A DNA stretch of 26,269 bases, taken from IMG/VR virus record IMGVR_UViG_3300023118_000026, positions 1-26,269 of that record; one strand, given 5' to 3'. The position numbers and the translations under genes are program-made. This DNA is from a virus. The notes beneath the pieces were generated by a model. It was not told the DNA's origin. It searched no databases and saw only the letters and a program-made list of their open reading frames with translations. The first letter of the stretch is position 1. Each line of letters starts with the position of its first letter. Shown here in pieces: positions 2,710 through 16,321 of this stretch.

Positions 2710-2917
2710 GACACAAGCCCTCACGCCATCACCGATCGCATACCGGATTCCCGAAGCGGCCGCCATCGTCGGCGTATCCGAATCCACCCTCAAAGCAGCA
2801 GTCAACCGCGGTGACCTCACCCGCCGTTACCCCGACTCGCGTCCCCTCATCGGGCACGACGACCTCCTCGCATGGTTCAACTCCCTCCCCGTCGACAAGC
2901 CCGGGAGCGCCGCATGA
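2702..2917 (+). CDS. Second HTH_17/excisionase-like DNA-binding protein
   Basis: A 71-residue protein with a MerR/excisionase-type helix-turn-helix (RIPEAAAIVGVSESTLKAAV) followed by a DLTRRYPDSRP wing and the ending DLLAWFNSLPVD. The TTG at 2702 is placed 9 bases after GGGAGG (2687-2692) and overlaps the Cro-like stop, so translational coupling is likely. The GTG at 2681 lacks a ribosome site. It shares domain layout and ending with the product of 1919-2104. One of the two may be the true Xis and the other an early regulator; the sequence does not say which. Confidence 0.72.
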   Translation: MPKTQALTPSPIAYRIPEAAAIVGVSESTLKAAVNRGDLTRRYPDSRPLIGHDDLLAWFNSLPVDKPGSAA

Positions 2918-3297
2918 CTATCTACACCGCCGACATGTTGCGCGCCGACATCCGCGAGATCGTTGAGCGTGGTGAAGTCGACCACGAAGAAAGCTTCTAC
3001 GGCAAGCACGTCGTCTATGTCGTCGCTTTCAGTGACGGCCTCGTGAAGGTCGGTCACACAACCGACTTTGAAACGCGTCAGAAGGCGCACACGCGGGTCG
3101 CACGCCGGTATGGGCACACACCGTCGAGCCATTGGGCCGCGGTCACTGCCAGCGCTCTCGAGGACGAGCAGGTTCTTATCCAGCTCGCCATGAACGCGGG
3201 CGGCAAACCGAAGGCCACTTCCAAAGAGTGGTTCACGAATGTTGACGTCGATGCGCTGATGGCTTCCGTTGAACGCGCAAAGGCGGTCGCCGCATGA
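2914..3297 (+). CDS. T5orf172/GIY-YIG-like domain protein
   Basis: A 127-residue protein whose centre, about YVVAFSDGLVKVGHTTDFE with a later EDEQVL and KEWF, matches the T5orf172/MUG113 branch of GIY-YIG-like nuclease domains. These are common in phages next to immunity genes; whether they cut DNA is mostly unknown. The start ATG overlaps the upstream stop (ATGA) and has a GGGAG site in the preceding gene. It is the last gene before the long non-coding leader. A nuclease or DNA-binding role is inference. Confidence 0.65.
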   Translation: MTIYTADMLRADIREIVERGEVDHEESFYGKHVVYVVAFSDGLVKVGHTTDFETRQKAHTRVARRYGHTPSSHWAAVTASALEDEQVLIQLAMNAGGKPKATSKEWFTNVDVDALMASVERAKAVAA

Positions 3298-3511
3298 TCC
3301 CTTCCCCACCCCCTAACACCCCACCGGCAACCTCGCGTGTTTACCGCAACCTGACCCCCCTGTTGTGTGTGTTCGCCCTGGTCCGCCGCTGTTGACGGCC
3401 TCCATCTTCCTGGCCTCGTAGCTCGCCCGAAGCCCTACGAGTCCTTCCGAGCTTACAAGCTCAGCCTCCGAGTCACGGACCGGTCGGAGGCACTATCCGG
3501 CATGCCCGGAT

Positions 3512-3531
3512 GCTCCTTGAGAACTCAATAG
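3512..3531 (+). promoter_or_regulatory. BoxA-like antitermination element
   Basis: TTGAGAACTCAA (3517-3528), followed by TAGCG, matches the BoxA sequence that precedes actinobacterial rRNA genes, where NusB/NusE bind nascent RNA and prevent termination. It sits immediately after the fourth hairpin, giving a hairpin-then-BoxA order. Outside rRNA leaders, a BoxA at the head of a long phage operon suggests processive antitermination using host Nus factors. The sequence match is clear; the function is inferred. Confidence 0.6.
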
Positions 3532-3714
3532 CGATACCTCGAAGACAAAGAAGGGGTGCCCTCCGCCGTAGCGGGCTTGAGGGGTTGGGGGCGGAAATCC
3601 CTGTGCCGGATCGACTAGCAGCTCGAGGCCGGCGAACAAATCTTTTGTGTCTGCAGATGGCCTTTTGGGGTGCCCGCTTGCTCGGGGTAAACGATCACAA
3701 GGCAGTCACTAGGG

Positions 3715-3738
3715 CCTGGCGGGGTCAAAGCCGCCAGG
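3715..3738 (+). terminator. GC-rich hairpin downstream of BoxA, possible attenuator
   Basis: CCTGGCGG (3715-3722) pairs perfectly with CCGCCAGG (3731-3738) around an 8-base loop, followed by TTCACAT with no true U-tract. It lies between the BoxA-like element and the first early gene. It may be a weak terminator overcome by antitermination, or only RNA structure. Confidence 0.35.
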
Positions 3739-3806
3739 TTCACATATCCACTTCTCCGGTCCCACCGTTTGGTGTGCCCGCAACCCGACAGATAGGGGGG
3801 GTTCTG

Positions 3807-4319
3807 ATGGCTAAGCCGTATAGGTCGTGTAAGTCCGAGTTTGAGCGTCTTGGTGCGGTTGAGCTGAGGCGCGATAAGTCGGGGTGCACGTTTCAGTTTC
3901 GTGATGGTCGTTGCCAGTTCGTGCATTTCAACGTGACTGCGCATGTTGCCCGGAATTTGATTGGTGATGTTCGGCAGCAGTACGGGCATTCGCGTGGTGT
4001 GGGGAAGTTCAAGGACCCGAAGGCACCACGGATTGAGATTGCCCGGTTGCGTGCGTCGGAGCATGCGAAGTCTCGGCTCGCTTTGATGCAGAGACAGCAG
4101 CAGGTGTCGTTTAACGAACTTGTGCACGCACTGGTGACTCCGGTTGAGGTGCGTTATTCGGGTTTGCATGAGTCGTGGATTTGGTGCGGTCATCGGGTTG
4201 CTGTGGCGGTCGCATTGGATGCGGATGGCGCACCGGTGATCACGACTGTTCTTTGGGCTACCCGCGAGTTGTGGGATGCCGCACCCAGACCGGAGAAGGC
4301 ACGGGTTGACCGTGGCTAA
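3807..4319 (+). CDS. HicA-like plus DUF4258-like two-domain protein
   Basis: A 170-residue protein and the first gene of the early operon. Residues about 8-55 (FERLGAVELRRDKSGCTFQF then FVHFNVTAHVARNLIGDVRQ) resemble a HicA-type double-stranded-RNA-binding-like fold. Residues about 100-150 (FNELVHALVTPVEVRYSG, then WIWCGHRVAVAVALD and VITTVLW) resemble DUF4258, a RelE-like fold. Both assignments are by eye and each fold also occurs in toxins, but no antitoxin gene is adjacent. ATG 3807 follows a run of G (3795-3800). Codon use (GGT, GTT, CGT rich) differs from the C-ending usage of the following genes and resembles the terminase/portal genes, a possible sign of separate origin. Confidence 0.6.
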   Translation: MAKPYRSCKSEFERLGAVELRRDKSGCTFQFRDGRCQFVHFNVTAHVARNLIGDVRQQYGHSRGVGKFKDPKAPRIEIARLRASEHAKSRLALMQRQQQVSFNELVHALVTPVEVRYSGLHESWIWCGHRVAVAVALDADGAPVITTVLWATRELWDAAPRPEKARVDRG

Positions 4320-4359
4320 GCAGCGTGAGGTTCAACGACTCCGCAAACGACAGAGATAA
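4306..4359 (+). CDS. Possible 17-residue basic peptide
   Basis: TTG at 4306 follows GGAGAAGG (4292-4299) and opens a frame ending TAA at 4359 that overlaps the end of the previous gene. The product (MTVAKQREVQRLRKRQR) is strongly basic. It fills the only gap between 3807-4319 and 4369-4557. Support is only the ribosome site and spacing, so it may be spurious. Confidence 0.2.
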   Translation: MTVAKQREVQRLRKRQR

Positions 4360-4368
4360 AGGAGAACG

Positions 4369-4557
4369 GTGACGAACGACGAACAGGAGCGCATCGGTCA
4401 CGAGGAATGCCGCGCCGAGATCCACTCGTGGGACTACTTCAACCAGAACCAGACCGGCAGCTACTGGATGCGGTGCCACCTACTTGGACCGCACAAGGAG
4501 CACGAGAACAGCGAGACGGGTGCGCGGTGGAATACGGAGCAGGAGAACATGCGATGA
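4369..4557 (+). CDS. Small Cys/His phage protein, unknown function
   Basis: A 62-residue acidic/polar protein. GTG at 4369 follows AAAGGAGAAC. The C-terminal half has CHLLGPHKEHENS then GARW, a C-x-L-x2-x-H-x2-H...W pattern that also occurs near the integrase N-terminus (CALPSHPQKKH...DW). A small metal-binding fold is possible. Its stop overlaps the start of the ASCH gene (ATGA). I do not recognise a named family. Confidence 0.65.
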   Translation: MTNDEQERIGHEECRAEIHSWDYFNQNQTGSYWMRCHLLGPHKEHENSETGARWNTEQENMR

Positions 4558-5087
4558 GCGACGAGATGCGCATCCTCACTGTGCGTCAGCCGTGGGCGTG
4601 GGCGATCATCCACGGTGGCAAAGACGTTGAGAACCGGGTGCGGAACATCGCCGGCGACTACCGCGGTCCAATTGCTATTCACGCTGGCCTAGCCAAGTTC
4701 GAAGACGACGGGCAATACCGCGAGGTAACCCGATCCGTTGTATCGGAACTCAATGGGTGGCCCGCTGATGACGGCGAGATGTGGGGCGCTGACCTCCTCG
4801 AACCCGATGACCCGCGATTCATCTTCGGCGCGATCATCGGCGTTGTTGACCTCGATGGCGTGCATGAAGGCCATAACACGGAGCGGTCACGCATGAAGTC
4901 CGTGCAGTCCTGCTACCGACCTATGAAGCCATTCGGCCCGTGCTCCTCGTGGGCATTGCCCGATAGCTGGCACCTCGAACTCGCCAACCCGCGCCCACTC
5001 ACCGAGCCGATCCGGTTCAAGGGCGCGCTTGGTTTGCGCCGACTTCCTGCTGACGTGATTGACCAGATCAAGGAGCAACTGAAATGA
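4554..5087 (+). CDS. ASCH-domain protein
   Basis: A 177-residue protein starting MSDEMRILTVRQPWAWAIIH. The motif ILTVRQPWAWAIIHGGKDVE near the N-terminus, followed by YRGPIAIHAG, is diagnostic of the ASCH (PUA-like) fold, which binds RNA or modified nucleotides; some members are nucleosidases or amidohydrolases. The later part (FIFGAIIGVVDLDG, then PFGPCSSWALPDSWHLELANPR) fits the same beta-barrel. The start was chosen at the ATGA overlap with a GGAGAAC ribosome site, not at an upstream start in the same frame. Its role in the phage is unknown; RNA binding during early growth is a guess. Confidence 0.85.
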   Translation: MSDEMRILTVRQPWAWAIIHGGKDVENRVRNIAGDYRGPIAIHAGLAKFEDDGQYREVTRSVVSELNGWPADDGEMWGADLLEPDDPRFIFGAIIGVVDLDGVHEGHNTERSRMKSVQSCYRPMKPFGPCSSWALPDSWHLELANPRPLTEPIRFKGALGLRRLPADVIDQIKEQLK

Positions 5088-5395
5088 CCACGACTGCACC
5101 CCAGATTCTCCCGGACGACGCAGCCCGCACAAGGAGATCCGATCCGCTCACCAGCCATGAAGCGGCAGACAGTAACGATGTCCACGGTTCGCAAGTCTCG
5201 GTCCTCCTAACCCTCTCCCTGTCTGGTCCACTAGCGGATCACGAGTTGGTGGAACGGATCAAGGACTACTCACCATCACGAGTGCGGACGGCGCGCTCAG
5301 AACTGGTGGGCATGGGAATGGTTGAGTTCACCGGCTTCTACCGACTGACGGCCGGCAACAGGCGCACACAGGTTTGGCAGGTGGTCAAGCCGTGA
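5084..5395 (+). CDS. Winged-helix-like small phage protein
   Basis: A 103-residue protein with the RSDPLTSHEAAD motif seen near the N-terminus of many phage early proteins, followed by a likely winged helix (LADHELVERIKDYSPSRVRTARSELVGMGM, then a wing FTGFYRLTAGNRRTQVWQVV). A DNA-binding role is inferred from that fold. It is coupled to the ASCH gene by a 4-base overlap. Confidence 0.7.
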   Translation: MTTTAPQILPDDAARTRRSDPLTSHEAADSNDVHGSQVSVLLTLSLSGPLADHELVERIKDYSPSRVRTARSELVGMGMVEFTGFYRLTAGNRRTQVWQVVKP

Positions 5396-5481
5396 TGCAC
5401 ATCGACCTCCTACCCCTCCTCATCGCACTCCCCCTTATTGCGGGCATGTGGTTACTGCACCGGAAAGAAGGACGCGGCTAA
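5395..5481 (+). CDS. 28-residue single-pass membrane peptide
   Basis: ATG at 5395 overlaps the upstream stop by one base, and TAATG joins it to the next gene. The product is a short head (MHIDL), a hydrophobic segment of about 15 residues (LPLLIALPLIAGMWLL) and a basic tail (HRKEGRG), predicting a single membrane helix with a cytoplasmic basic end. No family is recognised. Tight coupling on both sides is the main support. Confidence 0.5.
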   Translation: MHIDLLPLLIALPLIAGMWLLHRKEGRG

Positions 5482-5630
5482 TGGGTGTTCACGAGGTTCA
5501 CGGGCGCACGGTCGAGTACACGCCGTGTGCCAAACATGCTGCCTATGAGAAATCCGGGTATCTGGTTCTCAGTTGTCGGAAGTGTGTCGTCCGCCGTGTT
5601 GATGAGCAACCCGACGAAACCGACGAATGA
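5481..5630 (+). CDS. Small CxxC protein, unknown function
   Basis: A 49-residue protein from ATG 5481 (AAGGA in the preceding gene) to 5630. It contains CAKH and, 16 residues on, CRKC, consistent with one small zinc-binding site, and an acidic tail. ATGA overlap with the next gene. Function unknown. Confidence 0.6.
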   Translation: MGVHEVHGRTVEYTPCAKHAAYEKSGYLVLSCRKCVVRRVDEQPDETDE

Positions 5631-5764
5631 CCACATATCGCACGCTCCCTGATCCCGGCACCATCGAGGAGTTCCTGGCCCGTATTCGTGCACGCCCGGA
5701 ACCTGAACCCGACCCGGACGACCGCAGAAAACAACGACTTGAAGAAACGGAAGACGAACTATGA
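5627..5764 (+). CDS. Small charged protein, unknown function
   Basis: A 45-residue reading frame (MTTYRTLPDPGTIEEFLARI...) joined at both ends by ATGA overlaps. The second half is a run of charged and proline residues (RPEPEPDPDDRRKQRLEET), probably disordered. Support is operon geometry only. Confidence 0.55.
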   Translation: MTTYRTLPDPGTIEEFLARIRARPEPEPDPDDRRKQRLEETEDEL

Positions 5765-6063
5765 ACAACCTCGACGTATCCAAGATCACCGAACGACTCG
5801 AATTCATCATCCGACAGCGGGAGCAGAAACGCTCGGTCAGTGTCCACCTTGACGTTCTGCTGTCTGACATTCAGGCGGGGGCATATGACGCACCAGAACC
5901 GGTCGTCACCGTGGTCGAGCAGGAAGTTGTAGCCAACCTGCGCGCAGTGGCTCTTGACCAGGCGCGACAGTTCCGTGCTACCCGTGCAGGTGAACAGGGC
6001 CCCCAGACGGTGACTCGTGATGCAGTCCAGATGCTGAAGTTCCTCACCACAGGGAAAAGCTGA
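5761..6063 (+). CDS. Helical phage protein, unknown function
   Basis: A 100-residue, mostly alpha-helical protein (NNLDVSKITERLEFIIRQRE, later VVEQEVVANLRAVALDQAR). No family recognised. It overlaps both neighbours by 1 to 4 bases and shares their C-ending codon use. Confidence 0.65.
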   Translation: MNNLDVSKITERLEFIIRQREQKRSVSVHLDVLLSDIQAGAYDAPEPVVTVVEQEVVANLRAVALDQARQFRATRAGEQGPQTVTRDAVQMLKFLTTGKS

Positions 6064-6242
6064 TGACCACTGTTCCCCGTCATGAGGTTGACCGGATCAT
6101 TGCCGACTACGAACACGATGTTGCACGGGTCAGAGCACGGGTCCGGTCGATCGTGCGTTCCGTGTGGCCATGGGTGAAAGACGCGGCATTCATCATCGGA
6201 TGCGCTGCCATCGTCTGGGTTATTGCGTGGGTGTTCGCATGA
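6063..6242 (+). CDS. 59-residue membrane-anchored protein
   Basis: ATG at 6063 overlaps the upstream stop. A charged helical N-terminal part (EVDRIIADYEHDVARVRARV) is followed by one strong C-terminal membrane segment (AAFIIGCAAIVWVIAWVFA) that runs to the last residue, a tail-anchored layout. No family recognised. The gene ends inside the start of the methyltransferase gene (ATGA). Confidence 0.6.
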   Translation: MTTVPRHEVDRIIADYEHDVARVRARVRSIVRSVWPWVKDAAFIIGCAAIVWVIAWVFA

Positions 6243-6739
6243 CCGGCGCGATGGGATCTCACCAGTCAGCTCGAGCCGAGACGACGACATGGCTCACCCC
6301 GCCGAACATCGTTGAGGCCTTGGGCGCATTCGACCTGGACCCCTGTGCAGCGCCATCGCCCCGGCCCTGGTCAACCGCAGCGCGCCACATCGAACTGCCC
6401 GAAGACGGGCTAGCAGCGGAATGGTCCGGGCGTGTGTGGCTGAACCCGCCGTACTCGTTCGAGGCGTGGAATTGGCTGTCGAAACTCGCCGACCATGGCA
6501 AAGGCACCGCGCTTATCTTTGCTCGCACCGAGACTGCTGGCTTCGTATCCGAGGTGTGGGGCAAAGCGACGGCGCTCCTGTTCCTCCACGGGCGGCTGTA
6601 CTTCCATCGCCCAGACGGCACGCGTGCAGCGGCTAACTCTGGCGCTCCATCCGTTCTCGTCGCATACGGCAGAGAAGACGCTGACGCACTGAAAGCAAGC
6701 CCACTGAGTGGCACCTACGTCCAGTTGAAAGACGACTAG
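6239..6739 (+). CDS. dam: Phage DNA N6-adenine methyltransferase
   Basis: A 166-residue enzyme of the short phage Dam-type family (DNA N-6-adenine-methyltransferase) that transfers methyl from S-adenosylmethionine to adenine. Visible motifs: TWLTPPNIVEAL near 17-28, FDLDPCA (31-37), the catalytic NPPY at 69-72, and LIFARTETAGF, followed by LLFLHGRLYFHRPDG typical of this family. Start at the ATGA overlap; an upstream in-frame extension would run through the membrane-protein gene. No cognate restriction enzyme is adjacent, so it is an orphan enzyme, probably protecting phage DNA from host restriction or modulating regulation. Confidence 0.9.
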   Translation: MTGAMGSHQSARAETTTWLTPPNIVEALGAFDLDPCAAPSPRPWSTAARHIELPEDGLAAEWSGRVWLNPPYSFEAWNWLSKLADHGKGTALIFARTETAGFVSEVWGKATALLFLHGRLYFHRPDGTRAAANSGAPSVLVAYGREDADALKASPLSGTYVQLKDD

Positions 6740-6832
6740 ATGACCCCACACCGGTTCATCCTCCTGGGCCTCTTATTCGCCCCCACCATCATCACGGTCT
6801 GCTGCCTCTGGGTACGGACCGTTAGTTATTGA
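6740..6832 (+). CDS. 30-residue membrane peptide
   Basis: ATG immediately follows the methyltransferase stop. The peptide is mostly one hydrophobic segment (FILLGLLFAPTIITVCCLW) with short ends. No ribosome site of its own is obvious, so it would rely on coupling. No family recognised; a small membrane protein is plausible. Confidence 0.4.
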   Translation: MTPHRFILLGLLFAPTIITVCCLWVRTVSY

Positions 6833-6844
6833 AAGGCCAAAACA

Positions 6845-7039
6845 ATGTCCAAACTCGACCACGCAAGACTGTGCCTCCAAGCCGCAGAACACCTCGCAAC
6901 AATGCCCGACAGCCACACGATCAGGGCACAAGTCGCAGTACTCAACGAATGGTTGCAGCGCGACCAACCAGCCACCCTCGAAGCATCCGTGATCGGGTTG
7001 GCGGTCGCGATCCTGCACGACGCCGGAGTTTTGGCGTGA
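6845..7039 (+). CDS. Small helical protein upstream of the exonuclease
   Basis: A 64-residue protein with an AAAGG site 8 bases upstream of ATG 6845. It is predicted to be two or three helices (LDHARLCLQAAEHLATM, IRAQVAVLNEWLQ, ASVIGLAVAILHDAG). No family recognised. It overlaps the exonuclease start by 4 bases (GTGA) and so is probably co-translated with the recombination genes. Confidence 0.6.
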   Translation: MSKLDHARLCLQAAEHLATMPDSHTIRAQVAVLNEWLQRDQPATLEASVIGLAVAILHDAGVLA

Positions 7040-7713
7040 CACTGCACACCTACGAGGAAATAGAGCAGGGCTCGGAACTCTGGCATTTGGCCAGGCGCGG
7101 CATCCTCACCGCGTCAGTGATCGGCCAGTTCATCACCCCGAAGACGGTCAAAGTCGCAGCGAACGACAAAACCCGCGCCAAAGCGTACGAGCTCGTGGCC
7201 GAACGCATCACCGGAATCAGCGAAGACCGGTACGTGTCACGCGACATGGAGGAAGGCCACTTCATCGAACCGATCGCCCGCGACCTGTACAGCCAGCATT
7301 ACGCGCCGGCAACAGAGGTTGGGTTCATGGTTCGCGACGACTGGGGATTCCGCATCGGCTACTCACCGGATGGCGTAGTGGGTGATGACGGGCTGATCGA
7401 GATAAAGAAACGCCTCCCGAAACTGCACCTCGAAACGATCCTCACCGACCAGATGCCGCCCGAACACATGGCCCAAGTACAAACCGGCCTGTTGGTCAGC
7501 GGCCGTCAGTGGCTTGACTTCATCAGCTACTGCGGAGGAATGCCGCTCTTTGTGAAGCGCATTTTTCCCGACCCCATCTGGCACGCAGCAATCATCGAAG
7601 CCGCCACCGCCTTCGAGGAATCAGCCACCGACATGATCAGCCGGTACGCCGTCGCAACCGCTGATCTGCATCCCACCGAACGCATCGAAATGTACGAAGA
7701 AATGGTGATCTGA
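7036..7713 (+). CDS. YqaJ-type viral recombinase exonuclease
   Basis: A 225-residue protein of the YqaJ/lambda-exonuclease (PD-(D/E)xK) family, which resects double-stranded DNA ends for phage homologous recombination. Visible: QGSELWHLARRGILTAS (11-27), conserved acids in MEEGHFIEP (71-79), D112 in YSPDG, and E122/K124 in LIEIKK, the metal-binding core, then MPPEHMAQVQTGLLVSG. The start is GTG 7036 at a GTGA overlap with GGAG 9 bases upstream; further upstream the open frame has no ribosome site. Next to it lie a DnaJ-like zinc protein and a candidate recombination partner, forming a Red-like module. Confidence 0.92.
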   Translation: MTLHTYEEIEQGSELWHLARRGILTASVIGQFITPKTVKVAANDKTRAKAYELVAERITGISEDRYVSRDMEEGHFIEPIARDLYSQHYAPATEVGFMVRDDWGFRIGYSPDGVVGDDGLIEIKKRLPKLHLETILTDQMPPEHMAQVQTGLLVSGRQWLDFISYCGGMPLFVKRIFPDPIWHAAIIEAATAFEESATDMISRYAVATADLHPTERIEMYEEMVI

Positions 7714-8162
7714 TGCCACATCCAACCGGCCTGTCCTCCCAAGCCATCCACGGCTCGGGCATTGACCACCCATGGGACCCCAGTGACCTACTCCGCTGCA
7801 TCCGATACTGCGACGGATACCTGACGACCGAACAACTCCGCGAACGAATGGCCGGACGGTCGGTCGCATGGGATCGCCTACTCCCGGAGTGGGACAACCT
7901 TGTCGCGCTTCTCAAGCACGAGATGGCAACGCACACCGATGATCTCGCGCCTCTCACCTACCGGGCGATGAAGCGAGTCATCGCGGGCGGCACTGAATGC
8001 TCCGCCTGCAACGGGACCGGCACCGGCACCCCTTGCCTGAAGTGCAAGGGGACAGGTCGCCGCAGTGGCGGCAAGTGCCGCGCCCCTGGCTGCTTCCGTG
8101 GCTCGCACCTCTGCCAGACCTGCCGTGGTCGTGGCTTCACGATCAACAAGGAGAACCAGTAA
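7713..8162 (+). CDS. DnaJ-type zinc-finger protein
   Basis: A 149-residue protein whose C-terminal third has four CxxC-like pairs: CSAC (96-99), CLKC (108-111), C122 with C127, and CQTC (134-137), several followed by GxG as in the DnaJ cysteine-rich domain. That suggests two zinc sites. No J domain is present; the N-terminal 90 residues are helical and unrecognised. It lies between the exonuclease and its likely partner, so a role in recombination-complex assembly is conceivable but unproven. Confidence 0.75.
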   Translation: MPHPTGLSSQAIHGSGIDHPWDPSDLLRCIRYCDGYLTTEQLRERMAGRSVAWDRLLPEWDNLVALLKHEMATHTDDLAPLTYRAMKRVIAGGTECSACNGTGTGTPCLKCKGTGRRSGGKCRAPGCFRGSHLCQTCRGRGFTINKENQ

Positions 8163-8731
8163 TGAACCTCACCGAAACTATCGTGCCCAAGAGCGACCAA
8201 ATCAATGCGGATGACCTCATGGCCGCGCCCATCACGGTCACCATCACCGGTCACAGGAGAGGCAGCGCAGAACAGCCCGTCGACTTCGAGCTGGCAGAGT
8301 TCCCCGGACGCGCATACCGACCCTCCAAATCCATGCGCCGGGTCATGGTCAGCGCGTGGGGTGCAGAAGCCGCCAACTACGCCGGACATCGACTCACCCT
8401 GTTCCGCAACCCGGAGATCAAGTTCGGTGCAGAGAAGGTCGGCGGGATCGAAATCGCTGCCATGAGCCACATCGACAAGGCATTGACGATCGCTCTCACG
8501 GCGACAAGAGGCAAGCGGAAAGCATTCACCGTCCAACCCCTCAAAGACGCTGCGCCAACCGCCGCACCGTACATCGACCCGGATGTGATCACCGCATGGG
8601 TGACCAAATTTGATGAAGCCACCACCCTCGAAGAACTGCAAGGCATCTGGGGAGAAGCGAAAACGGCCGGCGTTGTCACCAATGCCGACGTTGTTGCGGC
8701 TAAAGACCGGAAGAAAGCGGCGCTGTCATGA
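8162..8731 (+). CDS. Conserved actinophage protein, probable recombination partner
   Basis: A 189-residue protein starting MNLTETIVPKSDQINADDL. The core (VTITGHRRGSAEQPVDFELA, RPSKSMRRVMVSAWG, GHRLTLFRNPEIKFG, GGIEIAAMSHID, LTATRGKRK) recurs in actinophages next to YqaJ exonucleases, as far as I recall. By position it may supply a single-strand annealing or DNA-binding function in place of RecT/Bet; this is inference, since I see no RecT signature. A short helical tail (TLEELQGIWGEAKTAGV) could mediate contacts. GGAGAAC lies 5 bases before the ATG. Confidence 0.7.
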   Translation: MNLTETIVPKSDQINADDLMAAPITVTITGHRRGSAEQPVDFELAEFPGRAYRPSKSMRRVMVSAWGAEAANYAGHRLTLFRNPEIKFGAEKVGGIEIAAMSHIDKALTIALTATRGKRKAFTVQPLKDAAPTAAPYIDPDVITAWVTKFDEATTLEELQGIWGEAKTAGVVTNADVVAAKDRKKAALS

Positions 8732-9141
8732 CCGCACTAGAAGAGATTGAAGCGGCAATTGCGAACCTGACGAGGCTCAAGGCCGAGTCAACTCAGTGGC
8801 AGCCTGACCCCGATATGCCCGAACTTGCTGGCTGGTATGTGGACTCGGACGGTTCCGGGCTCCAGGGTGTATTCGCGATCAAGGAACTGTTCAGGGGTGG
8901 TCATGCGGTAGCGCTCTACGCTGACCCGCCTGACGCCGAATTGATCGTCACCTTGCACCGCACCATCGACGCACAGTTGGCGATTTTGGGAGCCGCTTCG
9001 TCGTCAATCTTGGAGACAGGGCGCGATCCCGAAGCCGTGTACTCAGACGGGCGGCACATGGACGGGGCGCGGCTGCTGATGGTTGCTCCATGGGGTCGTG
9101 CCGCGGTGGACATGGCTCGCTCTATCAACGGCACCTCATGA
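8728..9141 (+). CDS. Hypothetical early protein
   Basis: A 137-residue protein of mixed character: an N-terminal helix (EEIEAAIANLTRLKAES), an aromatic acidic middle, then helices (AELIVTLHRTIDAQLAIL). I recognise no family. It is coupled at both ends by ATGA overlaps between the recombination partner and the RusA-like gene. Confidence 0.65.
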   Translation: MTALEEIEAAIANLTRLKAESTQWQPDPDMPELAGWYVDSDGSGLQGVFAIKELFRGGHAVALYADPPDAELIVTLHRTIDAQLAILGAASSSILETGRDPEAVYSDGRHMDGARLLMVAPWGRAAVDMARSINGTS

Positions 9142-9563
9142 CCTCGAATATTGATGGTGCTGAGATGGCGTACCACATCGAGCCGCTCCCGTTCAGCACC
9201 ACGTTCCGGTTCGACTGGGTGAAAGCGCCACTGTCGATGAACATGCGACTGCACCGGATGGCTGAAGCGAAAATCGTTCGCGAACTACGCAGCATGATGC
9301 ACGCCAAAGCCCGCATCATCCCCGAACTTGGGCGGTGTGAAGTGCGTCTCATCTGGTACGTCACCACGAACCATCGCAGGGACGAAGAGAACATTGTGCC
9401 CGTCCTCAAGGCGCTCTGTGACGGGCTGGTGGATGCCGAAGTGGTGGAAGACGACACCCCTCGGTTCATGCACAAACTCATGCCTGAAATCGTCAAGATC
9501 AACGGCCGCGACGACACCGCCCACTTCGAATTCACGATCACCGAGCTGGGTATAGCCGCTTAG
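9138..9563 (+). CDS. rusA: RusA-family Holliday-junction resolvase
   Basis: A 141-residue endonuclease that resolves four-way DNA junctions. PLSMNMRLHR (31-40) and the metal-site region RRDEENIVPVLKALCDGLVD carry the expected D82, N85, K91 and D95, followed by EVVEDD with a further acid, as in RusA. The start at the ATGA overlap (9138) gives a normal family length. In the operon it follows exonuclease and partner, so it likely clears junctions from recombination or branched replication DNA before packaging. Confidence 0.88.
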   Translation: MTSNIDGAEMAYHIEPLPFSTTFRFDWVKAPLSMNMRLHRMAEAKIVRELRSMMHAKARIIPELGRCEVRLIWYVTTNHRRDEENIVPVLKALCDGLVDAEVVEDDTPRFMHKLMPEIVKINGRDDTAHFEFTITELGIAA

Positions 9564-9577
9564 GCAGGAGGAACAAA

Positions 9578-10117
9578 ATGTCGAAGCTCACAATCAGCGA
9601 ACGACTCTGGGCGAACGTGACGGTCACGGGCTGCTGCTGGTACTGGGACGGATACCAAAAAGAAGGTGGTTACGGCTACATGCTTGCAAATCGACGCCTG
9701 CGACTGGTCCACCGGCTTGCGTACGAAGAGATGATCGGACCAATCCCCGAGGGCTTGCAGATTGATCACATCTGCAGGACTCGAAATTGTGTCAACCCAG
9801 ATCATCTAGAAGCCGTCACCCAGCAAGAAAATATCCGCCGTATCCCCCGCACCGTCTGGCACGGATACCGCGAGCAGACCCACTGCAAGAACGGCCATGA
9901 GTACACCGCCGAGAACACACGATATAGCCCGACAAGGCCGGGAAGAGTGCGCATATGCAGGGCGTGCGAACACGACAGATATGTGCGATATGTGTCTCGC
10001 AGGTCTATAGACAATGAGCCCGAACCATACACAATCCCGGCGCAAACAACAGCCGACGCGACCGTGCGAGTGGCCGCATCGAACGCTGAACTCATGCGCA
10101 GATTGGGGAAACCATGA
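9578..10117 (+). CDS. Free-standing HNH homing-type endonuclease
   Basis: A 179-residue protein with an HNH_3 motif: VHRLAYEEMIGPIPEGLQIDH (D63, H64), C71, N73 and H76 in RNCVNPDHLEAVTQQEN, then a second cysteine set (CKNGHEYT, later CRACEHD) typical of phage homing endonucleases with an extra zinc site. It has its own strong AGGAGG-type site and a 14-base gap upstream, unlike its tightly overlapping neighbours, consistent with insertion as a mobile gene. Its 3' end overlaps the C5-methyltransferase start. Confidence 0.9.
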   Translation: MSKLTISERLWANVTVTGCCWYWDGYQKEGGYGYMLANRRLRLVHRLAYEEMIGPIPEGLQIDHICRTRNCVNPDHLEAVTQQENIRRIPRTVWHGYREQTHCKNGHEYTAENTRYSPTRPGRVRICRACEHDRYVRYVSRRSIDNEPEPYTIPAQTTADATVRVAASNAELMRRLGKP

Positions 10118-10827
10118 CCAGAAGAATCCTTGACCTGTTCTGTTGCGCGGGCGGTGCTGGCACAGGTTACGAACGTGCCGGCTTCGATGTCTACGCGATC
10201 GACCTCGACCCGCAGCCCAACAACCCGCACCCGTTCCATCAAGGTGACGCACTCGAAGCACTCCGCACACTCATCGCCGGCGGGCGAATCGACTTCACCC
10301 ATAAAGACGGCCGGGTCGAATGGCTGAAGCTGGATGACTTCGACGCCATCCATGCGAGCCCACCATGCCAGGGGTACACGGCCCTCAAAGCCGTACACGG
10401 CAACGCATGGCCGCTACTAATTGAACCCGTCCGAGAACTGCTCGACGCAACCGGGCTGCCCTACATCCTCGAGAACGTACAGGGCGCACCAATCCGACGC
10501 GACCTGACCCTGTGCGGGGAAATGTTCGGGCTGGGTGTCATCCGTCATCGGTACTTCGAGCTCGGTGGGTGGACTGCGGTCGAACCGGAGCATGTGAAGC
10601 ATCGAGGGCGTGTTGCTGGTTGGCGTCATGGCCGCTACTTCGAAGGCCCGTATTTCGCCGTCTATGGCAACGGTGGAGGCAAGGGAACGGTGAAGCAGTG
10701 GCAAGACGCGATGGGCATCCACTGGACGGCAGATCGGCATGAGCTGGCAGAGGCGATCCCTCCGTCGTTCACAGAGCACATCGGCAAGCAACTAGTCACG
10801 CACCTCATATTGGAGGCCGCAGCATGA
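10114..10827 (+). CDS. dcm: DNA C5-cytosine methyltransferase
   Basis: A 237-residue enzyme, short for the family. Motif I is DLFCCAGGAGTGYERAGF, motif IV ASPPCQGYT with catalytic C85, motif VI ENV (120-122), motif VIII IRHRYFE (143-149), and motif X near AIPPSFTEHIGKQL. The target-recognition region is compact (about 150-200), as in other phage orphan enzymes. No partner nuclease is adjacent. It could protect phage DNA from host restriction or mimic host methylation. It overlaps the HNH and WhiB genes by 4 bases each. Confidence 0.93.
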   Translation: MTRRILDLFCCAGGAGTGYERAGFDVYAIDLDPQPNNPHPFHQGDALEALRTLIAGGRIDFTHKDGRVEWLKLDDFDAIHASPPCQGYTALKAVHGNAWPLLIEPVRELLDATGLPYILENVQGAPIRRDLTLCGEMFGLGVIRHRYFELGGWTAVEPEHVKHRGRVAGWRHGRYFEGPYFAVYGNGGGKGTVKQWQDAMGIHWTADRHELAEAIPPSFTEHIGKQLVTHLILEAAA

Positions 10828-11051
10828 CCGATCCCATCGATTGGCGCGACCGTGCTAATTGCGCGACCACGGACGGTGACCAGTTTTTCGCCGGCAATGA
10901 ACTGTCCATCCGCACACGCCTCATATGTAACGCCTGCCCAGTCCGCATCCAATGTGCCGAATTCGCGATCGCACATGAACCGGAATGGGGATTCTGGGGC
11001 GGCCTCACACCCAAACAACGACGACAAATCAGAAAGGACGGAGCCGCATGA
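10824..11051 (+). CDS. WhiB-like iron-sulfur regulator
   Basis: A 75-residue actinobacterial WhiB-family protein. The four cluster-ligating cysteines are C13, C35, C38 and C44 (CNACPVRIQC), followed by the GFWGGL turn (56-61) and a short basic DNA-contacting tail (KQRRQIRK). WhiB proteins bind a 4Fe-4S cluster and the primary sigma factor. Phage copies (for example WhiBTM4 of mycobacteriophage TM4) can interfere with host WhiB functions. Here it may redirect host transcription in early infection; its target is unknown. It is also the best single marker for an actinobacterial host. Confidence 0.93.
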   Translation: MTDPIDWRDRANCATTDGDQFFAGNELSIRTRLICNACPVRIQCAEFAIAHEPEWGFWGGLTPKQRRQIRKDGAA

Positions 11052-11215
11052 CAGAGATCCTTGCCCACATCGGCAGTTGCTGCAACCACGGCATCGGCTA
11101 CTGCGGAACACCCGTGGGACTAATGCCAGATGACCCAATCCCGAAAGAGATCTGCATCGTCTGCTCGACCTTCGACGCCTTCCTGACGTGCGGTCAATGC
11201 GCTAGGGCGTGCTGA
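11048..11215 (+). CDS. Small cysteine-rich protein
   Basis: A 55-residue protein with eight cysteines (SCCNHG, YCGT, ICIVC, TCGQCARAC), suggesting one or two zinc sites. No family recognised. It overlaps the WhiB stop (ATGA) and ends two bases before the replication gene. Confidence 0.6.
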   Translation: MTEILAHIGSCCNHGIGYCGTPVGLMPDDPIPKEICIVCSTFDAFLTCGQCARAC

Positions 11216-11216
11216 A

Positions 11217-11969
11217 TTGCCGTGGTTCAAAGTGGACGATGGATTCCACGGACACCCGAAGGTCGTCGAACTCACGCTCTCAGCAGTCGGTCTGTGGACG
11301 CTCACCGGCTCATGGTGCGCGAAGTATCTAACCGATGGGTTCGTGCCCGACAAGACCATCATTCGGCTCGGTGGAACGGTCGAAGAGTCGCAGGAATTGG
11401 TGCGGGCCGATCTTTGGCTGACCGCTCTCGGTGGTTACGAGTTCAAGGATTGGGCTGATTATCAGCCACTCAAGGCCGATATTGAGCTCGAACGGTCCGC
11501 AGCGCAGGAAAGGATGCGTTCCGTAAGAGCGAAACGTAAAGGGGTAAACGGTTCGCCCGAACAGCCGCCGAACGTTCCCCCGAACAACACGCGAAGTTCG
11601 CCCGAAGTTCGGTCAACCCCATCCCAGTCCCATCCCAGTCCCATCCCAGTCCCCCCTACGGGGGAAGCGCGCAAGCGCGGCACCCGCCTCAACGACAAAT
11701 TCGAGGTCACAACGGAGATGGTCGCATGGGCCAAAGACAACGCCCCCGACGTGAACGGAAAACGGGCAACCGAGATGTTCATGAATCACTTCCGGTCCAA
11801 GTCGGGGCAGGCAGGGGTTCGCGTCGACTGGGTTCTCACATGGAAGAACTGGCTACTGAAAGACCAACAGCGCGCCGAAGAACGCAGCACGAAACCCACA
11901 CCGGAGCAGCGAGCGAGACAAACCATCCAGCTCGCAACCGACATTGATCTGAAAGGAATCGAACAGTGA
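11217..11969 (+). CDS. DnaD/DnaT-like replication initiation protein
   Basis: A 250-residue phage replication protein. The N-terminal winged-helix region starts MPWFKVDDGFHGHPKVVELT and continues to about 95. A basic stretch and a proline/serine linker (about 100-150) are followed by a C-terminal domain (DKFEVTTEMVAWAKDNAP, WVLTWKNWLLKDQQ) like the single-stranded-DNA-binding domain of DnaT/DnaD proteins. Such proteins open the origin and recruit helicase loader and helicase. TTG 11217 is the only start fitting the conserved N-terminus; the ribosome site (AGGG) is weak. The linker DNA contains iteron-like repeats, as lambda O does. The next gene looks like the helicase loader. Confidence 0.82.
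   Translation: MPWFKVDDGFHGHPKVVELTLSAVGLWTLTGSWCAKYLTDGFVPDKTIIRLGGTVEESQELVRADLWLTALGGYEFKDWADYQPLKADIELERSAAQERMRSVRAKRKGVNGSPEQPPNVPPNNTRSSPEVRSTPSQSHPSPIPVPPTGEARKRGTRLNDKFEVTTEMVAWAKDNAPDVNGKRATEMFMNHFRSKSGQAGVRVDWVLTWKNWLLKDQQRAEERSTKPTPEQRARQTIQLATDIDLKGIEQ
11551..11664. repeat. Iteron-like repeats inside the replication gene, candidate origin
   Basis: GTTCGCCCGAA at 11551-11561 and 11596-11606, with GTTCCCCCGAA at 11574-11584, are spaced 23 and 22 bp, about two helical turns. They are followed by three perfect tandem copies of the 11-mer CCCATCCCAGT (11618-11650) and a CCCCC-TAC-GGGGG hairpin (11652-11664). The 11-bp period is not a codon multiple, so the tandem is not explained by a repeated peptide. 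Lambda-type phages have their origin inside the initiator gene at exactly this place. Origin function is inferred. Confidence 0.6.
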
Positions 11970-12265
11970 CCAATGACGAAGTGGCGAAAGTGTTGGCCCG
12001 CATTCAGTTGGGCGACAACCGGCAAGTGGATCGGGCGACTCTCCTGGATTGGATTGACACGATCGGTGACTTGGATTTTGCGGACTCGATCGCCGCTGTA
12101 GTTATGCATCGCCGCGAATCGACCGCATACCTACTCCCGGCACATATCCGGGCGAACGTGAAAACGATCCGGTCACGCCGGGAAAGGGATGCGCGGTTGG
12201 CTCTCCCGCGACCAGAACCGAAGCCGATCACGCTCGTTGGATGGGCGGCGAAACCGAACCGATGA
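11966..12265 (+). CDS. G39P-like helicase loader candidate
   Basis: A 99-residue protein (MTNDEVAKVLARIQLGDNRQ, then RATLLDWIDTIGDLDFADSIAAVVMHRRES, YLLPAHIRANVKTIRSRR). The helical pattern with DW, AxxAVxxHRRES and PAHIR resembles phage proteins classed as G39P-like replicative helicase loader/inhibitor. It follows the initiator with a GTGA overlap, the expected order. Family call is moderate, by pattern only. Confidence 0.68.
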   Translation: MTNDEVAKVLARIQLGDNRQVDRATLLDWIDTIGDLDFADSIAAVVMHRRESTAYLLPAHIRANVKTIRSRRERDARLALPRPEPKPITLVGWAAKPNR

Positions 12266-12375
12266 CACAAAACGATTACGCCGCAGACCTGTTCTTTGCC
12301 TCATTCACCCCAGCAATGTTCTGCGACTACGAATACCGCATCTTCCAGCACTACCAACTCAGGAGAAATAAGTAA
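12262..12375 (+). CDS. 37-residue aromatic-rich peptide
   Basis: ATG at 12262 overlaps the upstream stop, and its own stop overlaps the next start (TAATG). The product (MTQNDYAADLFFASFTPAMF...) is rich in F and Y with a basic end. It also supplies the AGGAGAAA ribosome site for the next gene. No family recognised. Confidence 0.5.
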   Translation: MTQNDYAADLFFASFTPAMFCDYEYRIFQHYQLRRNK

Positions 12376-12584
12376 TGGCAACCACCACCTATGACCCGCG
12401 GCCCGAAACCCTGACCGCTGAACAGATCGCCGTAGATCTGACGCTGAGCAACGAAGAGGGCTCCTCGATGTTCGGCTATGGATTCAACCACGAGGGCGGC
12501 TTTCTAGAAGTCGAGATGTATGGCGACGAAGGCCAGATCATCAAGTCATACGCAGTGACCATGAACATCGAGGAGATCAACTAA
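12375..12584 (+). CDS. Small acidic protein, unknown function
   Basis: A 69-residue acidic protein ([20 protein letters not shown], ending MNIEEIN), likely a beta fold. No family recognised. AGGAGAAA lies 8 bases upstream, and its stop overlaps the SSB start by one base. Confidence 0.62.
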
Positions 12585-13060
12585 TGGCCGGCGAAACCAC
12601 TATCACCATCATCGGAAACCTCACCAGCGACCCCGAGTTGCGGTACACGCAGAACGGGTTGGCGGTGGCGAACTTCACCATCGCGTCGACGCCGCGTGTG
12701 TTCGACAAGACCACGAACCAGTCGAAGGACGGGGAAGCTTTATTCCTCCGCGCGTCGGTGTGGCGTGAGTTCGCGGAACATGTTGCCGGGTCGCTGACGA
12801 AGGGTATGCGGGTTATCGCGGTCGGATCATTGAAGCAGCGCTCCTACGAAAAGGACGGTGAGAAGCGGACGTCGATCGAGCTCGACATTGACAGCATCGG
12901 ACCCGACCTGCGATTCGCCACTGCCGCTGTCACCCGCGCAACGGACGGACGCTCAAGCACACCCGCTGCATCTGCCCCCGAACCGTGGGCGGCAACAGGG
13001 CCGGCATCCACTGGTGATGTTTGGAACACGCCAGCCAACGACTCAGAAATTCCTTTCTAG
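12584..13060 (+). CDS. ssb: Single-stranded DNA-binding protein
   Basis: A 158-residue SSB. The OB fold starts [20 protein letters not shown], with [31 protein letters not shown] and [20 protein letters not shown] in the expected order. A flexible tail ends DSEIPF, a variant of the DDDIPF tip that docks partner proteins. It coats single-stranded DNA during phage replication and recombination. It lies downstream of the initiator and loader, completing the replication block. Confidence 0.96.
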
Positions 13061-13069
13061 GAGGCCCGC

Positions 13070-13348
13070 ATGACGACAAGAAGCTACGAAATCTTCACTG
13101 ATGTCGAGTTCGAATATGACCCCGAAACCGTTGACCCGTTCTGGTTCGACGACGACGGTGTGCGGACCTGGCGAATGACACACATCTACGACATCCCAGA
13201 CGAAGACGGAATCTGGAAGCACCTCGCATACAACGCCATCTCGAATGGGGTAACGGATGCTTCACGGCTTGACGGATGGGCCGACCTGGAACCGGGTCAA
13301 CTGACCATGTTCGTGGTGCACAACACGCTGACCATCGAGGAAGCCTGA
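13070..13348 (+). CDS. Hypothetical acidic protein
   Basis: A 92-residue acidic, aromatic protein (FDDDGVRTWRMTHIYDIPDE, later LDGWADLEPGQLTMFVVHN). It has a clear AGGAGG site. No family recognised. Confidence 0.62.
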   Translation: MTTRSYEIFTDVEFEYDPETVDPFWFDDDGVRTWRMTHIYDIPDEDGIWKHLAYNAISNGVTDASRLDGWADLEPGQLTMFVVHNTLTIEEA

Positions 13349-13530
13349 TGACCGATGCAGCCGCCATTGCCGCCTATAACGCCGACCGTAACCATCACTA
13401 CACAACCAACCCCCGCCATGACGATGCAACCCCGGACTGGGATGACCTGAACCCGGAAGAACAACTCACCCACGACGAAAACCGGTACCTACTCGAAAAC
13501 GGTGGGATTGCGTTCGGCAAGGACGGCTGA
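13348..13530 (+). CDS. Hypothetical small protein
   Basis: A 60-residue, His/Asn/Asp-rich protein (ADRNHHYTTNPRHDDATPDWDDL) starting at an ATGA-type junction. The upstream in-frame extension lies inside the previous gene and has no ribosome site. Function unknown. Confidence 0.55.
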   Translation: MTDAAAIAAYNADRNHHYTTNPRHDDATPDWDDLNPEEQLTHDENRYLLENGGIAFGKDG

Positions 13531-13661
13531 TGCCCGAACCGACAGAAGCAGAAGACACGGGCTGGATCATCTCCGGCCCGTTCGGTGTCGACCCAGAATC
13601 CGGATTCCCCGGCATCACCATCCGCCGGCGACCCAACGCAAACGAATCGAAGGAGTCCTGA
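13530..13661 (+). CDS. Hypothetical 43-residue protein
   Basis: MPEPTEAEDTGWIISGPFGVDP..., ending SKES. It is joined to both neighbours by one-base stop/start overlaps (TGATG). Its 3' end carries the AAGGAG site for the next gene in a sequence repeated at the end of that next gene. Confidence 0.5.
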   Translation: MPEPTEAEDTGWIISGPFGVDPESGFPGITIRRRPNANESKES

Positions 13662-13836
13662 TGCCGATCAATCCAACAATCGCCCAGTACCCAAAAGTCG
13701 ACCGCATCGAAGTGATCGACAACACCGGACGCGCATTCACCGTCCGCGTCGAACCCGGAGCCGAAACACACCTCCAAGACGAAGGCAGGACGCTCAAAGT
13801 GTTCGCCGGCAAACGAACCTCGAAGGAGTCCTGATG
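13647..13836 (+). repeat. Duplicated gene-start sequence TCGAAGGAGTCCTGATG
   Basis: The 17-base sequence TCGAAGGAGTCCTGATG occurs at 13647-13663 and 13820-13836. Each copy contains the Shine-Dalgarno, the upstream stop and the downstream start. Both are preceded by GCAAACGAA, 0 or 2 bases before the repeat. The two downstream proteins are unrelated, so this is a repeated junction, not a gene duplication. Confidence 0.75.
13661..13834 (+). CDS. Hypothetical 57-residue protein
   Basis: A small protein (PKVDRIEVIDNTGRAFTVRV, EPGAETHLQDEGRTLKVF) that looks like a small beta fold. It ends KRTSKES, echoing the end of the preceding gene. AAGGAG lies 7 bases upstream of the ATG. Confidence 0.58.
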   Translation: MPINPTIAQYPKVDRIEVIDNTGRAFTVRVEPGAETHLQDEGRTLKVFAGKRTSKES

Positions 13837-14010
13837 TCTACCCCTGACCCCGAAGCCCCGAAACTCGACCCGAAGCCGTGGCTCGACCCAACAACGGACG
13901 ACGACGATGAACGGCGACACACAACTGCTCCGGGCCCGTGGCAAAACTTCTACATCTTCGCCCCCCGTCGCGGGTACAGCCTCAACCGGAAGGACTACCC
14001 CAATGCCTGA
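13834..14010 (+). CDS. Hypothetical 58-residue protein
   Basis: A proline- and aspartate-rich N-terminal half followed by an aromatic region (PWQNFYIFAPRRGYSLNRKDYP). It uses the second copy of the AAGGAGTCCTGATG start region. Function unknown. Confidence 0.5.
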   Translation: MSTPDPEAPKLDPKPWLDPTTDDDDERRHTTAPGPWQNFYIFAPRRGYSLNRKDYPNA

Positions 14011-14422
14011 CCCCGAAGAAACCGAACGGGAAGCACTCGCCCGTGTCAATGTCAGGTATGTCGACGTAGGGCACCCATCAGGGGAGCGGCAGCCCGTTGA
14101 TATGGAACCCCGTGAGGCGTTGATCTTTGCCTTGATGGGCCCACGAGTCGTCAAGACGCACAACGGGACATGGAAGCTCGCGCGGCACGAAGCCGAAGCG
14201 TTCGCTGACGCGATCCTCGCTGCGGGTTTCCGTCGCCTGTCCGAGCCCGAGATACGCCGCGACCAAGCCGAGAAGATCAGGGCTGCGAAAGCCGAGGGCT
14301 GGGAGCGTGGCCGGTCAGACACCATCGCCAATCACCGACCACCACTCAGCGGCTTCGACAAGCGGGACAACCCGTACTCCGCCACCCCTTCACCCGAGAC
14401 GGAACAGGAGAACAAGCGATGA
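14003..14422 (+). CDS. Hypothetical helical protein
   Basis: A 139-residue charged protein (EETEREALARVNVRYVDVGH, WKLARHEAEAFADAILAAGF, RRDQAEKIRAAKAEGWERGR). No family recognised. The ATG overlaps the 3' end of the preceding gene. The last codons (ETEQENKR) and the junction with the next gene nearly repeat those at 4535-4564. Confidence 0.62.
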   Translation: MPDPEETEREALARVNVRYVDVGHPSGERQPVDMEPREALIFALMGPRVVKTHNGTWKLARHEAEAFADAILAAGFRRLSEPEIRRDQAEKIRAAKAEGWERGRSDTIANHRPPLSGFDKRDNPYSATPSPETEQENKR

Positions 14423-14904
14423 GCGACGACACGGCGCGCATTGGCGAGATGGTTCGTGATCTCGCAACACATCACGACCACGGCGACGGATGGACCTACA
14501 GCCGGAAGACGGGCAACCTAGAACACATCCGCTACCACAGCGACCACACCGGATACGGTTCCCTACACCGCCGCATCCTCCGCGCATTCGATCCCAAGCA
14601 CCTGACCGGCCGCGATTCGCTATCGAAAGCAATTCGAGGGCCATGGACACCACTCAGTGCCCTCGCCTGGATCTCAGTGTCACTCCGGAAAGACAAGAAC
14701 CTTCCAGACGGAGTGCTAAACGGCGGCAGCGTCATAACCATGTGGGAAGAAGACGGCGAATACATCGAAGCGGTCGGTCCGACTGTCGGGGTCAAGATCG
14801 CGGACTTCCTCACCCAAGAGCCGAACAACCCACACGCAATAGCAATCGCCACGGAAATTCAGCGAGTCCAATCCCTTGCGAACGGAGAACCAGATGAGCG
14901 ATGA
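14419..14904 (+). CDS. Hypothetical early protein
   Basis: A 161-residue protein starting MSDDTARIGEMVRDLATHHD. No family recognised. It begins at an ATGA overlap after GGAGAAC, and its end overlaps the next start by 11 bases. Confidence 0.65.
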   Translation: MSDDTARIGEMVRDLATHHDHGDGWTYSRKTGNLEHIRYHSDHTGYGSLHRRILRAFDPKHLTGRDSLSKAIRGPWTPLSALAWISVSLRKDKNLPDGVLNGGSVITMWEEDGEYIEAVGPTVGVKIADFLTQEPNNPHAIAIATEIQRVQSLANGEPDER

Positions 14905-15535
14905 CAGAGACAACCCGCTGCTACTAGCGGTCGAACATCTGACCAAACCGCAACGGTCAAAAGTCATCCAAGGGGAGACAGTTCATACAGTTGAACTGCC
15001 TCCCTTACTTGTTCAACTCGACGAAGCGATCCGCGGCACCATCGGCATCGGCGGTTCAGGGTCACTCCCGAACGAACGCAACGCACTCAACAACGACGCC
15101 CTGTTCCGACTGTCCGTGATCACCAGCCAGATCAAAGACTGGTGCCACATCGCCGGCATCGTCACCAGGCCCGGAGACAAGCCTGTTGAGCTGCTGCAAC
15201 GCTGGTACATCGCCTACACGCAACGACCACTCACCGTCGATGCGGAACGGTTCTACACCCGGGCACTCACCAGTTGGGCCGTCCAAATCGAAACCATGTT
15301 TGACCCGCCACGCACACACGACCTACCCGACCCATGCCCCGTATGCGCCGCAACCTCATGGTGGAACCCAGACGACAAACGCGAATACCCACGCCCACTC
15401 ATCGTCCAATACAAAGAATCCGAAACAGACATCATCGGATCAGCCAAAGGAGTATGCCGAGCTTGCGCACACGTCTGGACCGCACGAGAGTTGGCATACG
15501 CCATCGAAGAAAAAGAACGCGAGGAAGCCGGATGA
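14894..15535 (+). CDS. Phage protein with C-terminal zinc-ribbon-like cysteines
   Basis: A 213-residue protein. The N-terminal two thirds are helical (PPLLVQLDEAIRGTIG, LSVITSQIKDWCHIAG, LLQRWYIAYTQRP). The C-terminal part has CPVC about 35 residues before CRAC, a zinc-ribbon pattern. I recognise the type from actinophage early operons but cannot name a function. The start follows GGAGAAC by 3 bases. Confidence 0.7.
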   Translation: MSDDRDNPLLLAVEHLTKPQRSKVIQGETVHTVELPPLLVQLDEAIRGTIGIGGSGSLPNERNALNNDALFRLSVITSQIKDWCHIAGIVTRPGDKPVELLQRWYIAYTQRPLTVDAERFYTRALTSWAVQIETMFDPPRTHDLPDPCPVCAATSWWNPDDKREYPRPLIVQYKESETDIIGSAKGVCRACAHVWTARELAYAIEEKEREEAG

Positions 15536-15777: not shown

Positions 15778-15842
15778 TTCCCTCAACAATCTGGCAGAAT
15801 CAGCAACAAGTTCCTACACCTGTCTGAAAAATCAGGTAGCAG

Positions 15843-16130: not shown

Positions 16131-16245
16131 CGCTGCACGGGAGAACTTGACGCGTTCCCATCCCGCGCGTGGTTGCAGTACCTAAACAAAAGCTGGGCAC
16201 GCCGAACCGTCCATGGGATTCTCACCATGTAAAAAACGGGAGCAT

Positions 16246-16319: not shown

Positions 16320-16321
16320 CG

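Follow-up and report, generated by a model that had tools for sequence, protein, structure and literature searches.

An rRNA-type BoxA leader in the early gene region of a viral contig and its counterparts in actinophages: probable use of the host rRNA antitermination machinery

In phage lambda, nutR follows cro in the early transcript, and the BoxB element of the nut site is a short-loop hairpin located right after BoxA. The put RNA of phage HK022 is not known to contain a BoxA. This RNA acts without protein factors (PMC9378689), and gamma-proteobacterial suhB provides a case of BoxA outside rRNA and the lambdoid phages (PMC5725501). For E. coli rRNA, it has been argued that the Nus complex acts mainly in rRNA maturation and less in antitermination (PMC4807359). 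BoxA and Nus-dependent phage antitermination are, hence, already known; among the matches listed in the open-licence literature, no paper was found that deals with BoxA in actinophages, nor with actinophage leaders taken from the rRNA of the host, and no description of Rho avoidance in long actinophage early operons.

The window studied here (the whole stretch of DNA analysed) is a viral record of 26,269 bases, from a phage of an actinobacterium, that carries, on its plus strand, the BoxA TTGAGAACTCAA followed by TAG (3517-3531), as do the rRNA leaders used for comparison (L169-L171). The preliminary description had located this BoxA at 3517-3528, where the sequence is indeed exact and the sole copy in the record; when CTTGAGAACTCAAYAG was searched with up to three mismatches, the only match was the exact one, 0.25 being expected at that tolerance. 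It had also been stated that this form precedes actinobacterial rRNA genes, which agrees with the three rRNA replicons fetched of the 13 listed (Arthrobacter, Nonomuraea and Streptomyces): all three carry the same BoxA, 92-184 nt upstream of the 16S match. The BoxA core TTGAGAACTCAA followed by YAG is, in this way, common to the window and the fetched rRNA leaders, and the flanks of the window BoxA have no likeness to those leaders. The motif GATACC stands directly after BoxA in the window (3532-3538) and in two other viral contigs treated below (L057 and L005), and also 19-31 nt past BoxA in two of the rRNA leaders (L169 and L171), which may be chance.

As for the gene order, a repressor-like HTH gene in a CI-like position on the minus strand (2092-2382; Pfam HTH_3, 2.3e-06; PHROG 1373 transcriptional regulator, 5.6e-06) diverges from a Cro-like HTH gene on the plus strand (2461-2709; PHROG 4583 transcriptional repressor, 3.2e-14; Pfam HTH_26, 5e-08). 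The stretch at 2392-2468 is a candidate early promoter/operator, in which TTGACA occupies 2426-2431 and TATGCCTAC-type repeats occur three times between both genes, at 2392 (inverted), 2441 and 2460; its role as a promoter is putative, the promoter scan having called none between the repressor-like and the Cro-like genes. There follow on the plus strand an excisionase (xis)-like HTH gene (2681-2917; PHROG 66, 6.8e-06; Pfam HTH_17, 4.2e-06), a T5orf172-domain gene (2914-3297; Pfam PF10544, 0.00033, above its cut-off) and a conserved ORF of 33 codons (3294-3395), which overlaps the preceding gene through ATGA. The codon differences of this ORF between the window and L057 are 10 synonymous and 3 nonsynonymous, and a recognisable form of it is found in a third contig, L135. 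Since it had been overlooked in the preliminary description, the gene-free leader of about 510 bp reported there shrinks to 411 nt (3396-3806). The first gene after it (3807-4319, plus strand; P0001 without its Met), of unknown family, gave no match in the PHROG and Pfam scans and is 95% identical in L135; its start codon lies 275 nt past BoxA (3531 to 3807). A long same-strand gene run does follow the leader, as claimed; the idea that the leader is the 5' end of a separate operon is probably wrong, because only about 20 nt separate the small ORF from the first hairpin, and the Cro-like and xis-like genes lie upstream on the same strand. This short gap leads to reading the early transcript as one that starts at the repressor/Cro promoter and reaches BoxA past the Cro-like gene. 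The position and strand of BoxA fit an untranslated RNA before a same-strand gene run, the transcript being deduced from gene order.

It is likely, in our opinion, that 3396-3806 is a part of the early transcript that is left untranslated and works like an actinobacterial rRNA leader, through host-Nus (rrn-type) antitermination directed against Rho. RNA polymerase would start at the putative promoter that lies between the two divergent regulator genes, and would transcribe cro, xis and two small genes before BoxA. The BoxA RNA would then recruit the host NusB-NusE (the window record itself has no NusB gene), which in turn would bring NusA/NusG onto the polymerase, and the polymerase modified in this manner is predicted to resist Rho through the untranslated leader and the early gene run. 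It is probable that the conserved hairpins upstream of BoxA maintain the fold of this RNA, protect it from Rho and present BoxA. Terminator-like sites in 3400-16000 number one on the plus and 10 on the minus strand, 12.3 being expected on both, and this scarcity on the plus strand makes Rho the more likely obstacle to be overcome. No G+C-rich hairpin with a T-run, as would be proper of an intrinsic terminator or attenuator, was listed on the plus strand in 3396-3806. The C-rich stretch just before BoxA, with a GC skew of about -0.24 to -0.36, would suit Rho, though the small ORF takes up a portion of this stretch.

The same signal is widespread. When 50,697 phage records were searched by BLAST with BoxA oligos (E limit 10; the match sets of the oligos overlap), three of them matched 145, 107 and 99 phage records, all actinophages among the matches listed, and a fourth matched 59, again all actinophages; the hosts, among the matches listed, are Streptomyces, Mycobacterium, Gordonia, Rhodococcus and Nocardia. 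The annotated regions of 15 phages, chosen by hand and mostly among matches with no gene under them, were opened (Endor1, Bantam, MrMagoo, BRock, Bongo, Adzzy, Scherzo, P3.1, Lika, Gilson, HaugeAnator, GuyFagieri, Refuge, Lannister and SunsetPointe), and in all 15 the next gene lies on the BoxA strand. Endor1 and Adzzy carry a one-base variant of BoxA, and BRock and Bongo gave no match in the search for the near-exact core. Two observations speak against the proposed reading: in some other phages (e.g., Joe, Coruscant, Ibantik and Ailee) a hypothetical gene is annotated over the match, and BoxA is absent from Pitbull, whose capsid is the closest among named phages. The Mycobacterium phages Bongo, PegLeg, SirSheldon and their relatives were counted with two BoxA-like places in each genome. 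In Adzzy, Scherzo and Refuge (L173, L174 and L180), which are among the mycobacteriophages of about 53 kb and two of which are Fromanvirus, BoxA belongs to the leader of leftward early genes and is situated roughly 1 kb from the right end.

Would such a BoxA have to act on termination? An alternative is that it recruits NusB-NusE with another outcome, be it looping, folding or processing of the RNA or translational repression of the next gene, rather than resistance to termination. There are precedents for it, since the BoxA upstream of suhB in E. coli mediates repression (PMC5725501) and, at E. coli rRNA, the main service of the complex is argued to be maturation (PMC4807359). Furthermore, the RNA that follows the phage BoxA is long, structured and untranslated: over 60 loci, the 120 nt after BoxA are slightly more structured than control stretches (p = 0.025). 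Nevertheless, BoxA is found before whole early gene runs and not before one regulated gene, and its distance to the start codon (275 nt in the window, 120-482 nt in most of the opened phages) is far from that in suhB, below 50 nt, all of which makes this explanation unlikely.

The four tandem hairpins announced in the preliminary description are present on the plus strand, at 3412-3511, with arms that could be located at 3412-3421/3435-3444 (hairpin 1, 3412-3444), 3449-3454/3457-3462 (hairpin 2, 3449-3462), 3464-3471/3484-3491 (hairpin 3, 3464-3491) and 3495-3500/3506-3511 (hairpin 4, 3495-3511). The segment that holds them together with BoxA (3410-3530, 121 nt) folds better than its shuffled versions (z -2.61; three of 200 shuffles as good), while the whole leader, taken as 408 nt, has no more structure than expected by chance (z -0.05). 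A pair formed by a 5-bp hairpin and an adjacent 8-bp one, like hairpins 2 and 3, appeared in three of 20,000 shuffles of the window segment and in five of 20,000 of that of L135. Past BoxA there are a hairpin of the form ACCYC..GGGGT (3535-3558, plus strand), a weak one (3605-3633, plus strand) and the strong hairpin that had been reported at 3715-3738 (plus strand), which has indeed a perfect 8-bp stem (arms 3715-3722/3731-3738); its sequence differs in L057 and L135, but visual inspection allows a similar hairpin to be traced in both. A role of this last hairpin as a terminator was rejected, as it has no T-run and was left uncalled on the plus strand by the terminator scans. At the gathering score, Rfam gave no family over the leader and only two tRNAs in the window, and no match over the leader in 12 BoxA loci. 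The tRNA-Trp and tRNA-Met genes of the window lie at 16058-16131 and 16246-16320, within the same-strand gene run; when 30 BoxA loci were searched for tRNAs, none was consistently located close to BoxA.

Relatives of this leader were sought with P0001, the core of hairpin 1, hairpin 1 plus BoxA, the post-BoxA hairpin and the small ORF, and only L057 and L135 (the same contig as L161) were returned, together with L005 for the part after BoxA. One more match to the core of hairpin 1 (L160) was a chance match on reading, and the seven matches to hairpin 1 plus BoxA in genome contigs, all non-actinobacterial, were, to judge by their titles, also due to chance. Of the 22 stretches found with the pattern AACTCAAYAGCGATACC, only those of L005 and L057 are BoxA leaders. 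L057 and L135 keep the small ORF, the hairpins and the BoxA region, and their genes between xis and the small ORF are unlike those of the window. L057 differs from the window within 3410-3530 at two positions, both in loops, one of these being the loop of hairpin 4. L135 is the only distant relative with the hairpins, and its BoxA is weakened (TTATAACTCAACAG), which speaks against the proposed reading. In its leader, hairpin 1 (stem and loop near letter-for-letter in both contigs) has one one-sided change only, hairpin 4 is missing, and hairpins 2 and 3 have rewritten stems with two-sided changes in two of five and five of eight pairs, respectively, their order and stem lengths being kept and their spacing nearly so. 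The comparison of homologues for compensatory changes that the preliminary description had proposed gave, in sum, 7 of 20 pairs of hairpins 1-3 with two-sided compensatory changes and none broken between L135 and the window; this covariation rests on three sequences (window, L057 and L135), and hairpins 2-3 of L135 were paired by hand because MAFFT misaligned them. L005 shares with the window only BoxA and the next 45 nt or so, including the ACCYC..GGGGT hairpin, in which one U-G pair becomes C-G and none is broken; in the hairpin at 3605-3633, whose loop is partly common to both, two pairs have two-sided changes and several others are broken. The 50 nt or so that precede the first gene start in the window (3749-3798) are identical in L057 and 92% identical in L135, where they precede a different gene; we take them for a mobile 5' element that may form a hairpin. 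A tRNA-like sequence, of undetermined anticodon, lies in L005 at 10546-10617 (minus strand), about 100-220 nt after BoxA.

These hairpins had been proposed as possible substitutes for a phage N-like protein, an idea that finds no support as a general rule: the array is confined to three known records, and the 110 nt upstream of BoxA show no excess of structure over control stretches in 60 loci (p = 0.37). As the preliminary description had noted, there is no obvious N or Q gene, none being annotated in PHROG and Pfam scans that covered part of the ORFs; this absence is weak because many small genes had no match. A related possibility is antitermination free of proteins, in which the hairpins would act on RNA polymerase like the HK022 put RNA and BoxA would be secondary. 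The put RNA is a known solution of a phage that does without a phage protein (PMC9378689), and L135 keeps hairpins 1-3 better than its BoxA; set against this, the array occurs in three known records while BoxA is widespread, hairpin 4 is lost in L135 and most BoxA leaders lack excess structure upstream, so that the possibility is very unlikely.

The 17-base pattern TTGAGAACTCAAYAGYG was found in at least 119 viral-contig stretches, compared with 14 for the reversed pattern, and two reversed oligos matched one and four phage records, with no actinophage among them. The 121 segments collected (window included) fall into 58 sequence clusters, of which 48 are GC-rich; some groups of matches (e.g., those of L025 and L038) are AT-rich coding DNA and no leaders. 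A codon model was trained on genes annotated in 13 phages (13 of 13 in leave-one-out validation). It assigns most of the downstream genes to the BoxA strand at 70 of the 77 GC-rich loci, which are not independent of each other, and to the opposite strand at seven; loci of the latter kind are present in six of the 48 GC-rich clusters, four of which hold only such loci. The upstream genes of GC-rich loci are evenly distributed (32 vs. 31 of 65, two tied), as are the downstream genes of GC-poor loci (eight vs. nine of 17). A count by the longest ORF gave a much weaker bias (48 plus and 34 minus in 82 GC-rich loci), and was set aside because it assigned to the minus strand the early genes of Lika that are annotated on the plus strand. 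In L053, one of the BoxA-bearing viral contigs, type II hammerhead ribozymes occur at three places of the same strand (3850-3935, 4935-4997 and 6899-6966; Rfam).

Part of the phages go further than BoxA. With a 151-nt stretch of a Streptomyces rRNA leader as query (150 records at E up to 10, the weak matches including non-actinophages), the early leaders of Streptomyces phages match over 76-107 nt with a best E of 6e-12, which corresponds to Lannister (78% over 107 nt); further matches are those of Zemlya, Danzina, Goby and others (76%), of SunsetPointe, Caliburn and Izzy (76 nt at 82%, 2e-11) and of Gilson (73.5%, 3e-3). A model (R1) built from the 65 nt before BoxA of 20 Streptomyces-type phage leaders, without rRNA and without BoxA, finds the rRNA leader in a match that ends exactly at its BoxA (E 1.6e-8); its other three matches among 24 sources (L111, L177 and L043) nearly duplicate sequences of the training set. 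Among those sources, the window, L005, L057 and L135 were unmatched, as were the mycobacterial, Gordonia, Nocardia and Rhodococcus leaders. Since R1 misses the window leader, only BoxA ties the window to rRNA, and the claim made for it is that it works like an rRNA leader and not that it is a copy of one. Judged by sequence, there are two styles: the leaders of Streptomyces phages resemble the rRNA leader, and those of the window and others have only BoxA in common with it.

Could the BoxA-like sequence still be a DNA operator, or chance? The 12-mer is nearly palindromic, and some matches fall in AT-rich coding DNA, as in the groups of L025 and L038; chance is ruled out by the counts for the reversed pattern and the reversed oligos, the latter nearly without matches, and an operator is unlikely given the strand bias of the downstream genes at GC-rich loci. 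The additional YAG in common with rRNA and the existence of rRNA-like phage leaders go against both, which together retain very little probability, even less than the protein-free alternative. A decoy function, by which abundant early BoxA RNA would titrate NusB-NusE from host rRNA synthesis, is hardly credible, as a BoxA in a transcribed early leader is compatible with it and nothing more specific, and the cis placement before long same-strand gene runs would be needless.

The presence of an rRNA signal in many unrelated actinophages, some of them with a near-copy of the leader, indicates that actinophages probably borrow the host rRNA antitermination machine for early gene expression. A broader joint reading, on which opinion is evenly balanced, is that unrelated actinophages carry out early transcription with the host rRNA antitermination machinery and without a phage N, by means of a repeatedly acquired BoxA leader: in the Arquatrovirinae and Gilson-like Streptomyces phages it would be a near-copy of the rRNA leader, with the early transcript passing as rRNA, and in the group of the window it would be accompanied by a private covarying hairpin array. 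This general case, i.e., actinophages that borrow or copy a host rRNA leader signal, is the point of most interest. Rho avoidance matters for the widely used mycobacteriophages and Streptomyces phages, and a cis-acting signal that these phages share and have copied from the rRNA genes of their hosts would be a direct and testable answer to it. If an rRNA-type signal is used, phage early expression would depend on NusB, and BoxA leaders would supply a natural series for the study of Nus factors in Actinobacteria.

Compared with the described systems, the suhB BoxA, which represses a single gene from less than 50 nt before its start codon, differs from that of the window, placed 275 nt away and before a gene run. 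The put site of HK022 and the window may be likened, by analogy, as structured leader RNAs of phages in which no phage protein has been identified. The window resembles lambda nutR in that the early transcript would reach the site past a Cro-like gene (in the window, by gene order) and in that both have BoxA; in contrast to lambda nut/N, the hairpins of the window precede BoxA, no N-like gene is recognised and BoxA is of the rRNA form, and no BoxB of the lambda type follows it in the window, where the first hairpin past BoxA has a 12-nt loop. With the actinobacterial rrn leader, the window shares the same BoxA core plus YAG and, as predicted from position and strand, a location in untranslated RNA before a long transcription unit, and the Streptomyces phages have, in addition, the 65 nt before BoxA in common with it, the difference being that BoxA is followed by rRNA in the rrn operons and by protein genes in the phages.
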